In this document: positions 13,921 through 36,800 of the stretch, piece after piece
How the letters are laid out: each line of letters begins with the position of its first letter
How positions within the stretch are numbered: the stretch's first letter is position 1
Source: Bacillus gaemokensis
GTDB taxonomy: Bacteria > Bacillota > Bacilli > Bacillales > Bacillaceae_G
Assembly (NCBI RefSeq): GCF_001590835.1
Contig: NZ_LTAQ01000001.1
Span: 882,572-946,571 of the forward strand
Length of the DNA stretch: 64,000 nt
Direction of reading: 5' to 3'
The notes under the pieces: model-generated
Databases searched by the model: none
Seen by the model: only the letters and a program-made list of their open reading frames with translations
What the model was told of the DNA's origin: nothing
Program-made: the position numbers and the translations under genes

Positions 13921-14019
13921 ATGAAAGCTTTCGTTATTATCGTTTTAACTTTTCTTAGCGTCATTAGTTGGGATTCCTTTTTCAAAGACAAAGCAGATAC
14001 AAAAAAAACAAATGATTAA
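13921..14019 (+). CDS. 32-residue single-span membrane peptide
   Basis: MKAFVIIVLTFLSVISWDSF followed by FKDKADTKKTND: one N-terminal hydrophobic helix and a charged tail. AAAGGAGGG lies 8-9 bases before the ATG, one of the best ribosome sites in the window, which makes translation likely. It could be a small membrane regulator or secreted peptide. It is followed by a hairpin at 14046-14075. Confidence 0.65.
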   Translation: MKAFVIIVLTFLSVISWDSFFKDKADTKKTND

Positions 14020-14193: not shown

Positions 14194-14221
14194 TTGAAAG
14201 TATGATATAATAGTATAAAAT
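14194..14221 (+). promoter_or_regulatory. Candidate promoter of the leader-yitT transcript
   Basis: TTGAAA, 16 bases, TAAAAT; an overlapping perfect TATAAT at 14206-14211 is an alternative -10 with a weaker -35. Both place the start just before the first micro-ORF. Confidence 0.45.
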
Positions 14222-14245
14222 CTTTACAGAAAGGATTTTGATAGC

Positions 14246-14296
14246 ATGATCGCTCGAAGGAGCATGTGGCATCGAATTGACGAATCTTACACGTAG
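14246..14296 (+). CDS. Leader peptide 1, 16 aa
   Basis: Micro-ORF MIARRSMWHRIDESYT ending TAG, with GAAAGGA about 10 bases upstream. It shares 11 of 16 residues with leader peptide 2, and several codon differences are synonymous (ATC/ATT, GCT/GCC, ACG/ACA), which supports selection on the peptide. The stop codon touches the 5' arm of an inverted repeat. By analogy to erm/cat leaders, a ribosome held near its end would change folding downstream. Confidence 0.65.
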   Translation: MIARRSMWHRIDESYT

Positions 14297-14341
14297 CGTA
14301 TTTTTCCAGCTCAGATACTTTAGTCTAGCGAAAAAAATACG
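14297..14341 (+). promoter_or_regulatory. Attenuator hairpin after leader 1
   Basis: CGTATTTTT (14297-14305) pairs with AAAAATACG (14333-14341), with a smaller nested stem (GCTCAGA/TCTAGC) inside. The 3' arm ends three bases before the GTGGGG ribosome site of leader 2. No T-run follows, so control of translation is more likely than termination. Confidence 0.55.
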
Positions 14342-14355
14342 AGAGTGGGGAAATT

Positions 14356-14406
14356 ATGATTGCCCGAAGGATAATTTGGCAACGAAAAGACTCTTCTTAC
14401 ACATAG
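14356..14406 (+). CDS. Leader peptide 2, 16 aa
   Basis: Micro-ORF MIARRIIWQRKDSSYT ending TAG, preceded by GTGGGGA. Same length and pattern (MIARR-x2-W-x-R-x-D-x-SYT) as leader 1, so the two arose by duplication or share a constraint. Stop codon directly precedes an 11-bp inverted repeat. Too short to be an ordinary protein; the position argues for a regulatory peptide. Confidence 0.65.
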   Translation: MIARRIIWQRKDSSYT

Positions 14407-14527
14407 CGTTTTGTTTAGGCCCGCATTGTTACTCGCTAAACAAAACAAAGAAAGAAGAGAGCAGGATTGCTAAATGACAAATCCTACTCCAAGTTTTGTT
14501 TAGTCTATTTTAGGCTTAAACTAAAAC
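14407..14527 (+). promoter_or_regulatory. Four-segment attenuator after leader 2
   Basis: Segment 1 GTTTTGTTTAG (14408-14418), segment 2 CTAAACAAAAC (14436-14446), segment 3 an exact repeat of segment 1 (14493-14503), segment 4 CTTAAACTAAAAC (14515-14527). 1:2 and 2:3 are both perfect 11-bp pairings and 3:4 pairs with small bulges, so the folds exclude each other. Segment 4 ends just before the AGGGAG site of leader 3. An extra AGGATT/AATCCT stem lies between 2 and 3. Confidence 0.65.
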
Positions 14528-14544
14528 GAAAGTAGGGAGAATTG

Positions 14545-14586
14545 ATGGACGAGAGGATTATTCGTTATTTCTTCAGCGACATATAG
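14545..14586 (+). CDS. Leader peptide 3, 13 aa
   Basis: Micro-ORF MDERIIRYFFSDI ending TAG, with AGGGAG five bases before the ATG. It differs from leaders 1 and 2 but keeps RII near the middle and the TAG-CGTA junction to the following repeat. An in-frame TTG one codon upstream is an alternative start. Confidence 0.6.
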   Translation: MDERIIRYFFSDI

Positions 14587-14668
14587 CGTAGTTAGTTTTA
14601 ATGTAAACTAACTGAAGGCTACATGAGCTCGTAGTTAGTTTACAAAGTAAAAAGAACTACTAACTACG
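14587..14668 (+). promoter_or_regulatory. Four-segment attenuator after leader 3
   Basis: Segment 1 GTAGTTAGTTT (14588-14598), segment 2 GTAAACTAACT (14603-14613), segment 3 CGTAGTTAGTTTAC (14630-14643), segment 4 ACTAACTACG (14659-14668). 1:2 gives 9 bp, 2:3 gives 11 bp, 3:4 gives 10 bp, all perfect and mutually exclusive. The GAAGGA site of the membrane-protein gene begins four bases after segment 4. Confidence 0.7.
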
Positions 14669-14684
14669 GAAAGAAGGAATAACG

Positions 14685-15335
14685 ATGAGGAACATCCAAA
14701 GTCGACAAATTATTAAAGAAATTTTTATGGTTTTAATCGGTTCATTTATTTTATCTGCAGCGCTATATCACATTCACTTTCAAAACCACTTAACAGAAGG
14801 TGGCTTTGTAGGAATTGCTTTATTCATACAAAACTTTTTTGATATTTCACCGTCAATTTCAACTGTATTGATGGATATTCCAGTTATTTTACTATGTGCT
14901 ACATTTTTAGGTAAAAAGATGGTTGGTTATTCATTTATGGGGTCAATTTCATTCGGAGTATTTTATTCTTTAATGGAAAACTACTCTCCATTTACGGTAG
15001 ATTTATCAAATCATTTATGGATAGCTGCAGTTGTAGGCGGCGCGCTAGCTGGTATTGGACTCGGTTTTATATTGCGATTTGGCGGTGCAACCGGCGGAGA
15101 CGACATTTTAACAATTGTATTAAGTAAACGAACTCGTTTTACAATTGGGCAAATTTTCTTCGTCTTTGACGCGATTGTTCTTGCGCTTTCATTATATTAT
15201 TTAACATGGACAGAAATTGCCTTTACTATTCTTTCCATTGCCGTGCAGGCAAAAACATTGGATTTAATTTACTATCCAAAAACAGAAAAGAAAACAGTAT
15301 CAATTCCAATGTCCAAAAAACATGCAACAAATTAA
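14685..15335 (+). CDS. YitT-family (DUF161) membrane protein, 216 aa
   Basis: Five or six hydrophobic helices from residue ~13 to ~195. Family marks are NHLTEGGFVGIAL, the Gly-rich GGALAGIGLGFILRFGGATG and GGDDILTIVLSKRT. Most YitT proteins carry a C-terminal DUF2179 domain; here the protein ends after the membrane part, so it is the short type. Substrate or function is unknown. GAAGGA precedes the ATG, and it lies at the end of a leader with three micro-ORFs, so expression is probably induced by something that stalls ribosomes. Confidence 0.85.
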   Translation: MRNIQSRQIIKEIFMVLIGSFILSAALYHIHFQNHLTEGGFVGIALFIQNFFDISPSISTVLMDIPVILLCATFLGKKMVGYSFMGSISFGVFYSLMENYSPFTVDLSNHLWIAAVVGGALAGIGLGFILRFGGATGGDDILTIVLSKRTRFTIGQIFFVFDAIVLALSLYYLTWTEIAFTILSIAVQAKTLDLIYYPKTEKKTVSIPMSKKHATN

Positions 15336-15366: not shown

Positions 15367-16200
15367 TCATGCTCTTTTTTCTTTTTCTAATATGTAACGC
15401 ACTTGATAAAACCTGTTCGCAAATTCAGTAACATTCCTTGTTAAACGATAGTTTACGGTAGAACCAATCGCAATCCCTAACACCGGAACACCTTGGAACA
15501 ATTTACGACGAAGCGCATAAATAGAGAACGTCTTCAAAATTTGTTTTAAGATAACTTCTACAGACGCTGGTTTTAATACTTCTTCTTCCCCTTCATAAAA
15601 GAATGAATCTTCTTGTTCAAGTTCTTGCAGTAAGTTATACCATGCATATTGCTGAAGTCTTGCTGGTAACAATGCCGCATGAAATACTTTTAAAGCAAGC
15701 ATCATTTCGTAAGGCTTGTTTACATCATGGCCAAATGACGTTGCAATAAGCTGAACAGCCTTCACATTTAATGCAATCATAACAGGAAAATCAGCAGTTA
15801 ATAATAATACACCGCCGACTCCAGTTGCTCCCCCCTGTACGAAAGAATAGAGACGATGACGTGCCGTCTGTTGCTCTGCTATGTATGTTAATTGATCAAT
15901 GGATAACGATTTTACATCCTCTAGCTGCTCAATGGATTCATCAAACAATCTCGCTGTACCTAAAATGCGATTTCGCGCATCAAGCTGTGATTGTGAGCTT
16001 TGAATAAATGCATGAAGATGGAAAAGCCATCCATCTGCTTTCATAAAAAACTCTCTCCGCTTTTTCTCCGGTAACTTTGCTACTGTACCATGTAACCATT
16101 TATCAAACACCTTTTGAAAATCGGTCGCTTCTTGTTCTAATAATTGCCCTTCCCAATCTTTTATGTTTTGTAAAATGGCTTGTTCTCGCTTTGATCGCAT
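15367..16200 (-). CDS. EcsC-family protein, 277 aa
   Basis: Similarity is to the EcsC family (PF12787), proteins related to the third gene of the B. subtilis ecs ABC operon, function unclear. The typical Gly-rich segment FVQGGATGVGGVLLLTADFP is near residues 120-140, followed by a weakly hydrophobic helix; a late Gly-containing segment GVPVLGIAIGSTVNYRLT lies near 240. Start at MRSKREQ with GAGGTGG eight bases away. Transcribed alone here, not beside an ABC transporter. Confidence 0.8.
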   Translation of the reverse strand: MRSKREQAILQNIKDWEGQLLEQEATDFQKVFDKWLHGTVAKLPEKKRREFFMKADGWLFHLHAFIQSSQSQLDARNRILGTARLFDESIEQLEDVKSLSIDQLTYIAEQQTARHRLYSFVQGGATGVGGVLLLTADFPVMIALNVKAVQLIATSFGHDVNKPYEMMLALKVFHAALLPARLQQYAWYNLLQELEQEDSFFYEGEEEVLKPASVEVILKQILKTFSIYALRRKLFQGVPVLGIAIGSTVNYRLTRNVTEFANRFYQVRYILEKEKRA

Positions 16201-16312
16201 CGTAACAACCACCTCGCTCAATTTTTTTCTATTGTAACATATTTCCGCTTTTTCTTTGCACATCTGCTGCTAAGCTAAACATATATTTATCCACGCATAG
16301 GGAAGATGTTGT

Positions 16313-20254: not shown

Positions 20255-20650
20255 TTAGATTTCAAACTCAGGCGCCTCGCCTTTTCGCTTCTCCATCATT
20301 TCCTTCACTTTATCGACAGCTTGTGGTGCTAATTCAATTATTTTATCAATCACATGTGTTTGTTTATCTAAATGCAACACTTTCACACCATCTCCATTAA
20401 TCACAAGGAAGGCAACAGGGTTAATGGAAACACCACCACCGCTACCTCCTCCAAATGGATGGCGACCAGAATTTTCAACTCTGCCAAATTCGCTTCCACC
20501 TGCTGCAAAACCGAAACTCACCTTAGAAACCGTTAGAATAACGCTTCCATCAGCAGCCTTAATTGGATCACCAATAATTGTATTTACATCCGTCATTTGT
20601 TTTAAATTCTGCATTGCTGTCGTCATTAAATCTTGAATTGGATGGTCCAT
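20255..20650 (-). CDS. gerW: Spore germination protein GerW / YtfJ, 131 aa
   Basis: Sporulation protein family YtfJ (PF09579), needed in B. subtilis for germination with alanine. Diagnostic are ILTVSKVSFGFAAGGSEFG and the Gly-rich GRHPFGGGSGGGVSINPVAF at about residues 65-85. Normal length. It follows ytfI by ten bases and so is probably cotranscribed with it, under sporulation control in B. subtilis. Confidence 0.93.
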   Translation of the reverse strand: MDHPIQDLMTTAMQNLKQMTDVNTIIGDPIKAADGSVILTVSKVSFGFAAGGSEFGRVENSGRHPFGGGSGGGVSINPVAFLVINGDGVKVLHLDKQTHVIDKIIELAPQAVDKVKEMMEKRKGEAPEFEI

Positions 20651-34897: not shown

Positions 34898-34907
34898 TGC
34901 TTATTTA

Positions 34908-34951
34908 AAAAGGATGATAATGAAAGCGACAGCTATCTTTATCATCCTTTT
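34908..34951. terminator. Terminator for the 42-aa gene
   Basis: AAAAGGATGATAA...TTATCATCCTTTT, a perfect stem, with T-run in both directions. Confidence 0.75.
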
Positions 34952-34979
34952 CTAACCTTCTCTTATATATAAAATAAAA

Positions 34980-35108
34980 TTATTTATCTTCTTGTTTTTG
35001 AACATACACATAAGCATCCTTTGGATTTTTATGTACAGTACTTTGTTCATTCTCCGCAAGCTGACTAGCATTTAGCAAAGAAAAAATAATGAGCGCCTCT
35101 AGTGACAT
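34980..35108 (-). CDS. Small protein, 42 aa
   Basis: MSLEALIIFSLLNASQLAEN followed by a charged tail ending VYVQKQEDK. The N-terminus is mildly hydrophobic, the rest polar. GAAAGGAGTGG lies upstream of the ATG, and a terminator follows 30 bases past the stop, so it forms a complete small unit. No family recognised. Confidence 0.6.
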   Translation of the reverse strand: MSLEALIIFSLLNASQLAENEQSTVHKNPKDAYVYVQKQEDK

Positions 35109-36544: not shown

Positions 36545-36800
36545 AAAAAAATCGCCCCTTAAATAAGGGACGATTTTGATCATCGCGTTACCACCCTAGT
36601 TGCAGGCAAAAAAAGCCTACCACCTCATTCACATAACGGCTCAGCACCGTCTTTTCCCTTTTGAATACGATTCAATCGAAAAAAGATGCTCTAGGGGCGT
36701 AATTCGCGATCATCTATGTGCTGATTTCCACCGACCATCAGCTCTCTAAAACAGGGAAATGATCACTACTTCTCCCTTTCCACGCTCAATTATTTATATA
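36545..36800 (-). promoter_or_regulatory. T-box riboswitch of tyrS
   Basis: The T-box sequence AGGGTGGTAACGCG is at 36584-36597 (minus strand), followed by terminator stem AAATCGTCCCTTA/TAAGGGGCGATTT with T-run at 36549-36577. A TAC (Tyr) triplet suits the specifier at 36699-36701, downstream of an AGTGA-type motif. Uncharged tRNA-Tyr would stabilise the antiterminator. Confidence 0.93.

Follow-up and report, generated by a model that had tools for sequence, protein, structure and literature searches.

What kind of control is exerted when three very short open reading frames (ORFs), each with a Shine-Dalgarno (SD) sequence and each ending at the foot of an inverted repeat, stand one behind the other before a gene for a membrane protein? 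This question is raised by the leader of a yitT gene in a 64,000-nucleotide (nt) stretch of the Bacillus gaemokensis genome, analysed here at its full length and called the window. The initial annotation had described micro-ORFs of 16, 16 and 13 codons (ORF1, ORF2 and ORF3), each ending in a TAG that directly touches a hairpin, and had assigned the gene behind them to the YitT family. Both statements were confirmed, the former in the sequence, where all three TAG codons are followed by a CGT that starts an inverted-repeat arm (at 14297, 14407 and 14587), and the latter by a Pfam match (PF02588, E 9.8e-44). We describe a leader-peptide family that is real, conserved and apparently undescribed, and that appears to be a variant of translation attenuation. 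It probably works as a translation attenuation relay in which the ribosome is arrested near the end of a sensor ORF, within its last codons or on its UAG.

A conserved leader before one YitT subfamily

A contig scan returned a single relative, in Priestia taiwanensis (65% identical). Upstream of its yitT gene the three ORFs recur as MIARRSIWQRKDLSYT, MVARSIWQKKDLSYT and MCDRIICYFFSDI, each followed by its stop codon, and the leader is therefore conserved between diverged genomes. In the nearest family, a yitT ortholog (E<=1e-60) was found in 19 of the 19 genomes searched, all of which carry ORF1 together with an ORF3-like last ORF; two leader ORFs are present in 18 of them and three in P. taiwanensis. 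The three-ORF scheme thus holds for the window and P. taiwanensis, and not for the other 18 genomes. The two-tier switch is the basic plan and the three-tier form a lineage-specific elaboration with an added sensor copy; ORF1 and ORF2 of the window are 77% identical across 60 nt. A candidate fourth micro-ORF (MTNPTPSFV, then stop) lies between ORF2 and ORF3 at 14474-14503 (+), its TAG inside a hairpin arm; no counterpart is among the ORFs listed for the P. taiwanensis leader.

At the level of the order, a pattern made from ORF1 (up to 3 mismatches) occurred in 17 of 397 genomes, the reversed-pattern control giving 0, and these were the same 17 genomes that have the ortholog at E<=1.1e-68 (next best YitT, 1.7e-41). 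One of them, G389, lies outside the nearest family, and in its own family both of the genomes with the gene (E<=1e-45; 2 of 16) have the leader. The search was extended to the class, which we take to be Bacilli from the position of P. taiwanensis. Here 69 of 398 genomes encode a YitT protein at E<=1e-42, and all 69 carry the sensor core on the same contig and strand, 118-302 nt before the approximate yitT start, as computed from the coordinate tables of the YitT and core searches. Since these genomes were chosen by protein and not by leader, the pattern itself cannot account for the conservation. Nine further loci were read, and the same kind of leader peptide was present in 9/9 (for example MLPRRTIWKRFDLSDT, MGPYKTVWKRYDLSYI and MSSRRTNPQRTIWKRCDLSYT, each closed by a stop). 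Class loci were folded in two overlapping sets of 9 and 30, the latter including G001, the remainder of the 69 being counted by coordinates alone.

Searched on its own with 1 mismatch allowed, the core pattern was found in 70 of the 398 class genomes (reversed-pattern control, 0). The one beyond those 69 is G739, in which a pair of sensor ORFs (MFPQSIWKRQDLSYT and MFPHFIWKRHDLSYT, each followed by a stop; locus L095) stands in tandem before a YitT gene that scores 8.6e-40, and because tandem copies are thus present in another lineage, the sensor appears to have been duplicated more than once. Among paralogs of the long YitT form the core was absent at 21/21 loci looked at, and the one Listeria YitT copy looked at has no W...D core within 1 kb upstream. 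A sample of the phylum, queried with the L105 protein, gave six matches at E<=1e-45 among 368 genomes, all of them already in the class search, and plasmids gave no DNA match and distant YitT relatives only.

The putative sensor peptide and its stop codon

Conservation is concentrated in the last half of the peptide, with the consensus W-[KQH]-[RKQ]-x-D-[LSE]-S-[YD]-[TI]-UAG. D-L-S-[YD]-[TI] is found in 72/72 core matches of the class, the nearest family having D-[LSE]-S-Y-T, and the stop codon is TAG in 72/72; as background, among long ORFs TAG is the stop codon of 10 of 51 in the window and of 14 of 50 in seven retrieved regions. The ratio of nonsynonymous to synonymous differences (pN/pS) was calculated over codons 2-16 for the 13 distinct family-type ORF1 sequences, which come from the window, the nearest family, G389 and G401. 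It is 0.30 in frame and 0.21 for the core (0.29 over 24 distinct cores across lineages), against 1.0-1.7 in five of six values from shifted frames, the sixth being 0.64. For ORF3 (11 distinct) the values are 0.40 in frame and 0.81-1.11 shifted. By these comparisons ORF1 is under selection as a peptide-coding sequence. Among these 13 sequences, ORF1 of the window diverges most (S-M-W-H-R-I-D-E-S-Y-T, the L/S position being occupied by E), and ORF2 stands closer to the consensus. Since this first peptide recurs ahead of the same type of gene in numerous relatives, it probably senses a specific signal.

Near the ORF1 start, GCTCGAAGGAGC (window 14252-14263) is identical in 11 of the 13 sequences, the other two having GCTCAAAGGAGC; this region has a stem GCUC/GAGC with the SD-like AAGGAG, and its nucleotides are conserved beyond what the peptide needs.

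Leader peptides may also serve as attenuators that respond to amino-acid shortage, a possibility raised in the initial annotation, and arginine would be one candidate here. The peptides read contain 1-4 arginine codons per ORF1, and the pair CGA-AGG is kept in 11/13 distinct family-type ORF1 sequences. However, the pair is CAA-AGG in G389 and G401 and is absent in some other leaders (e.g., L057), the conservation peak D-L-S-Y-T-UAG involves several amino acids, and the downstream gene is not biosynthetic. Because no run of one codon, or of codons for one amino acid, is conserved, this explanation is very unlikely.

The predicted lock on the yitT ribosome-binding site

The last step of the proposed relay, from ORF3 to yitT, is supported by covariation and by folding controls. 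The codons of ORF3 for R-Y-F-F (14562-14574) can pair with the SD region of yitT (14673-14685). The 22 family-type leaders reduce to 9 distinct rows, all 9 of which retain ten core pairs, and the three flanking positions are paired in 5, 6 and 7 of the 9. One core pair shows a compensatory change from T-A to C-G (the window has T-G), and since the accompanying change from YFF to YSF alters the amino acid at a variable pair while the pairing is kept, a function of the RNA is indicated. Native ORF3:SD duplexes are also more stable than those obtained by swapping partners across groups (means of -14.4 and -11.1 kcal/mol), and in each of 12 distinct pairs just 8-87 of 1000 synonymous recodings of the last ORF paired as well.

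Folding of the 22 full leaders gave opening energies for the yitT SD of 4.1-10.2 kcal/mol in the free RNA and of 0.3-2.6 with a ribosome placed at the last stop (22/22 leaders), while a ribosome at the first stop shifted them by <=1.2 kcal/mol. When the segments of eight leaders were isolated, the corresponding values were 6.3-9.1 and 0.4-3.8, and the native drop was reached by 0 of 480 shuffles (60 per leader). The yitT ribosome-binding site (RBS) is thus predicted to be sequestered until a ribosome on the last leader ORF sets it free. Within these models, coupling is well supported for the last step only.

Such a release, as predicted, needs just the passage of a ribosome over ORF3, which fits equally with plain translational coupling, whereby the ORFs would keep the messenger RNA open and protected and YitT would simply track the general supply of ribosomes or the rate of initiation, neither a sensor peptide nor an arrest being involved. 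In 23 of the 28 placeable leaders from outside the nearest family, the second ORF extends across the yitT start, and because of this overlap plain coupling could carry the last step there; the weakness of the first step in part of the set (see below) also suits it. Nevertheless, it leaves unexplained the conservation of ORF1 residues, the strict UAG and the presence of sensor copies in two lineages, and we consider it unlikely as the whole account. In these counts L063 and L065, which have no second ORF by the rule used, were excluded and identical segments were counted once; the second ORF of L068 is probably mis-called (MYE). At loci of the L057-L089 type the second ORF often crosses the yitT start out of frame and has the conserved sequence SSVVGW...PKP...RGI.DEES, suggesting coupling by overlap.

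The proposed sensor step

The step from the sensor ORF to the next ORF is supported by the conservation of the peptide, the UAG and the position, as read from sequence comparison. With a ribosome at stop 1, the predicted opening energy of the next RBS falls by >2 kcal/mol in 14/22 full leaders and in 30/46 isolated distinct segments, and for 22 of these 46 segments at most 1 of 30 shuffles did as well. A scan of ribosome positions was made on 14 first-step segments, picked mainly for a strong drop. In these the RBS is predicted to open with the P site in later codons, with an onset at codon ~10-12 in the family types, ~13 in most others and 8-9 in L064; for ORF1 of the window the best P-site codons were 11-13 and 16, with no gain at 14-15. 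The opening window broadly coincides with the stretch of the conserved peptide and its UAG.

This position bears on induction by drugs, which the initial annotation, citing the erm, cat and ABC-F resistance genes, had inferred as one option and for which the analysis found no support. A ribosome-targeting antibiotic would stall translation of ORF1, and YitT would act as a resistance or tolerance factor. The architecture, with a leader ORF and an occluded SD, is indeed like that of erm and toiL, the four alternating arms resemble those of ermC, and two leader peptides are described for ermA. Macrolide leaders, however, stall ribosomes in their N-terminal part, whereas here the stall that opens the next RBS is predicted further on, in later codons or on the UAG itself, and the peptide appears unrelated to erm leaders. 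The R/K-x-R/K ketolide motif, as given in excerpts of PMC8298421, is not conserved in the sensor peptide. Macrolide-selected Mycoplasma pneumoniae mutants with changes in a YitT-family gene, mentioned in excerpts of PMC10240068, are no more than suggestive. In the excerpted parts of that paper and of PMC10533825, YitT proteins appear among many others. No resistance role for YitT was seen in the literature looked at, and we give drug induction a small share of probability.

Weighing the relay against simpler explanations

A ribosome-operated multi-step switch, as the initial annotation had suggested, is the best reading because of coding selection, an architecture conserved across genera and the predicted opening of ribosome-binding sites; within the window it is supported by prediction for the opening of the yitT RBS and poorly for the transitions from ORF1 to ORF2 and from ORF2 to ORF3. 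Several results weigh against it, the first group of which concerns the sensor step. Ten of the 46 first-step segments have a negative drop, so that this step is not universal, and over all segments 347/1380 shuffles match or beat the native sequence. In the window itself, the drop for ORF1 to ORF2 is 1.4 kcal/mol, with 7/30 shuffles as good. For the isolated segment from ORF2 to ORF3 it is -1.2 kcal/mol, with 29/30 shuffles as good, and no ribosome position tried gave an opening energy <3.4; in the full leader, a ribosome at stop 2 lowers the value for the ORF3 RBS from 5.6 to no less than 3.1. The pairing of ORF1 with the following SD is not superior to that of synonymous recodings (62-795/1000 as good), and a simple lock by an anti-SD in ORF1 was rejected as the full account of step 1; for the ORF2 segment 14392-14400, 124/1000 recodings pair equally well with 14532-14540.

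Further points against the relay are the overlap of the second ORF with the yitT start noted above, the use throughout of naked RNA and an assumed 31-nt ribosome footprint in folding, and the observation that in part of ORF1 the core is kept in nucleotides as well as in residues; given the latter, the conserved ORF1 core may also have a role as RNA. The last of them is the background of chance matches. A rule asking for an SD, 10-30 codons and a perfect inverted repeat of 8 base pairs (bp) starting 0-3 nt after the stop picked out exactly ORF1, ORF2 and ORF3 on the + strand, 3 matches as compared with a mean of 0.03 and a maximum of 1 in 30 simulated 64-kb Markov strands. On the - strand it matched 4 ORFs at 3 places, and since the real - strand thus also exceeds the simulation, the + strand count alone overstates the rarity. 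The occurrence of three such ORFs consecutively within 350 nt, together with their conservation, is stronger evidence than this count. The - strand matches include small SD-preceded ORFs with 8-bp inverted repeats at about 34901-35011 and 20255-20296.

Chance also enters into another alternative, according to which the micro-ORFs are accidental and the hairpins alone matter, either by binding a protein or through an effect on stability. In its favour, arms such as CGTAGTTAG/CTAACTACG recur across lineages. Yet selection acts in frame, the leader is present in all 69 genomes chosen by their YitT protein and the chance expectation is low, so that hardly any weight is left for hairpins alone.

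The 482-nt leader folds more stably than 100/100 shuffled versions (z -5.5). The initial annotation had placed one hairpin between each ORF and the next SD; hairpins do start at each stop, and it is two in tandem that occupy the 138-nt spacer between ORF2 and ORF3 (14407-14418/14436-14446 and 14493-14503/about 14515-14528) and four arms that lie between the ORF3 stop and the yitT SD. The former can pair as 1:2+3:4 or as 2:3, and the latter as 1:2+3:4, 2:3 or 1:4. A riboswitch or other known RNA family was considered and rejected, as Rfam gave no match in the leader at the gathering score, and a search at E<=10 gave seven sub-threshold matches only. Transcription attenuation was likewise rejected, there being no terminator-like site on the + strand within 14194-14685 in a scan that accepts loops of 3-8 nt only, a restriction that also counts against the relay; from this result, control is more likely translational than transcriptional.

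Features of the window and gene neighbourhood

The features of the locus are collected in Table 1. Further upstream, a 32-codon ORF at 13921-14019 (+) has a strong SD (AAAGGAGGG) and encodes one hydrophobic stretch. The sole Rfam match of the window at the gathering score is a T-box leader (RF00230, 150 bits) at 36563-36791 (-).

Table 1. Coordinates of the yitT leader and adjoining genes in the window
Feature	Position	Strand	Basis and remarks
Predicted promoter (TTGAAA-16-TAAAAT)	14194..14221	+	Pattern scan; just 5' of ORF1
Candidate extended -10 site, TGATATAAT	-10 hexamer 14206-14211	+	Predicted, read from sequence
SD of ORF1, AAAGGA	14230..14235	+	Sequence; AAAGGA or a close variant before ORF1 in relatives
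ORF1, MIARRSMWHRIDESYT then UAG, 16 codons, putative sensor leader peptide	14246..14296	+	Sequence, conserved core peptide
Hairpin 1, arms 14297-14305 CGTATTTTT and 14333-14341 AAAAATACG	14297..14341	+	Sequence, fold; begins at the base after the stop
SD of ORF2, GTGGGG	14345..14350	+	Sequence; can pair, weakly, with UCUUAC at the ORF1 end
ORF2, MIARRIIWQRKDSSYT then stop, 16 codons, putative second sensor copy	14356..14406	+	Sequence, repeat search
ORF2 segment TCTTCTTAC	14392-14400	+	Complementary to 14532-14540
Tandem hairpins, repeated arms 14407-14418, 14436-14446, 14493-14503 and about 14515-14528	14407..14528	+	Repeat search, fold
SD region of ORF3, GTAGGGAGA	14532..14540	+	Sequence
ORF3, MDERIIRYFFSDI then stop, 13 codons, putative relay ORF whose codons hold the anti-SD for yitT	14545..14586	+	Sequence, pairing
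Anti-SD within ORF3, TCGTTATTTCTTC	14562..14574	+	Pairs with 14673-14685, repeat search
Four-arm alternating hairpin, 14587-14598, 14602-14613, 14630-14641 and 14659-14668	14587..14668	+	Repeat search, fold
yitT SD region, predicted to be sequestered by ORF3	14673..14685	+	Repeat search, folding, covariation
Short-form YitT-family membrane protein gene, 216 amino acids	14685..15335	+	Pfam YitT_membrane PF02588, E 9.8e-44
Next gene, EcsC family	15367-16263	Opposite to yitT	ORF list

Pfam names PF02588 as uncharacterised, solved structures gave no sequence match to the YitT protein at E<=0.01, and no function for YitT was found in the open-access literature searched. Operon context was tried as a functional clue and set aside, since both neighbours of yitT have the opposite orientation in 6 of the 7 regions listed; the exception is L105, where ORFs on the same strand lie on either side of the gene and the next one starts 180 nt downstream. 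Ten neighbours from the other six regions were compared with Pfam, and eight have families and two have none. Those families, with enzyme names read from domains, include AdhE-like, CysJ-like, Hmp-like and MsrAB-like proteins, GH32, ROK and a thioesterase, and the one neighbour common to two regions is the AdhE-like gene, in G001 and G008 only.

Proposed mechanism and comparison with known systems

In the relay that we favour, the sensor peptide would be encoded by ORF1 (in the window by ORF1 and its copy ORF2), with the conserved last half W-K/Q/H-R-x-D-L/S-S-Y-T-stop. At rest, as folding suggests, the coding sequence of each leader ORF would pair with and so shut the RBS that follows it, the effect being strongest at yitT, and the hairpin that starts at the stop codon would hold the two close together. 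A ribosome halted in the last few sensor codons or at the UAG would cover the anti-SD and the first hairpin arm, and the next RBS would then open; translation of the last leader ORF would in turn uncover the yitT SD and allow YitT to be made. We infer that arrest near or at the UAG is the trigger, that the first step relays to the last ORF and that YitT is the response.

A more specific version is offered tentatively, as a possibility that falls somewhat short of an even chance. A widely conserved and undescribed arrest peptide (W-K/Q-R-x-D-L-S-Y-T-UAG) would halt termination at a UAG read by release factor 1 (RF1), in response to a small molecule or cell state that the short-form YitT handles. 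The micro-ORFs would form a chain in which each unlocks the next RBS, and lineages would tune the switch by duplicating the sensor, as in the window and P. taiwanensis and, separately, in G739. Both the nature of the signal and an arrest at termination with RF1 are inferences.

Termination-arrest leaders are known in TnaC and SpeFL, in which conservation lies next to the stop codon and the stop codon itself is unvarying. The YitT leader is similar in its conserved C-terminus and fixed stop (72/72 TAG). TnaC stalls with free tryptophan, according to excerpts of PMC8429421. Differently from TnaC, the YitT leader has another peptide, uses UAG and is predicted to act by translation attenuation.

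Tandem leaders have a precedent in ermA, and also in ermD and ermB, where successive leader ORFs precede the regulated gene. As described in excerpts of PMC8274638, ermA and ermD have two leader peptides, and in one proposed model for ermA the first leader, when a ribosome stalls on it, opens the second, and stalling there in turn opens the gene, the interplay of the two being called not clearly understood. In the YitT system, by contrast, the regulated gene encodes a membrane protein, the anti-SD lies within a leader ORF, the sensor can be duplicated to give three ORFs and ribosomes are predicted to stall productively toward the end of the sensor ORF, in its later codons or on its UAG. The toiL element of Escherichia coli topAI, as excerpted from PMC12121999, is a short upstream ORF that shares a hairpin with the RBS of the main gene, and a stalled ribosome opens this hairpin. 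Whereas toiL is a single ORF, here an ORF for a conserved peptide would feed a second ORF that carries the RBS lock. In Bacillus subtilis, leader ORFs or peptides precede the drug-response genes vmlR, yxjB and bmrCD, for which titles indicate transcription attenuation or RNA polymerase pausing, and for vmlR also translation attenuation; the YitT leader differs from these in lacking a terminator-like site in the + strand scan.

The view in the initial annotation that such a leader had no prior description for a YitT gene agrees with our search, in which none was found in the open-access literature, a body of text that lacks most subscription papers. The word yitT is likewise absent from the main text, as excerpted, of a survey of structured RNAs (PMC8632094).

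The one-to-one link between this YitT subfamily and the sensor peptide offers a route to the function of the protein, namely to find what arrests the peptide. If arrest does occur at the UAG, the leader would add to the Gram-positive bacteria a sensor that works through the nascent chain at termination, its leader ORFs being arranged as a relay. The chains of two and three ORFs would provide a natural case for asking whether stacked leaders sharpen, delay or combine signals.

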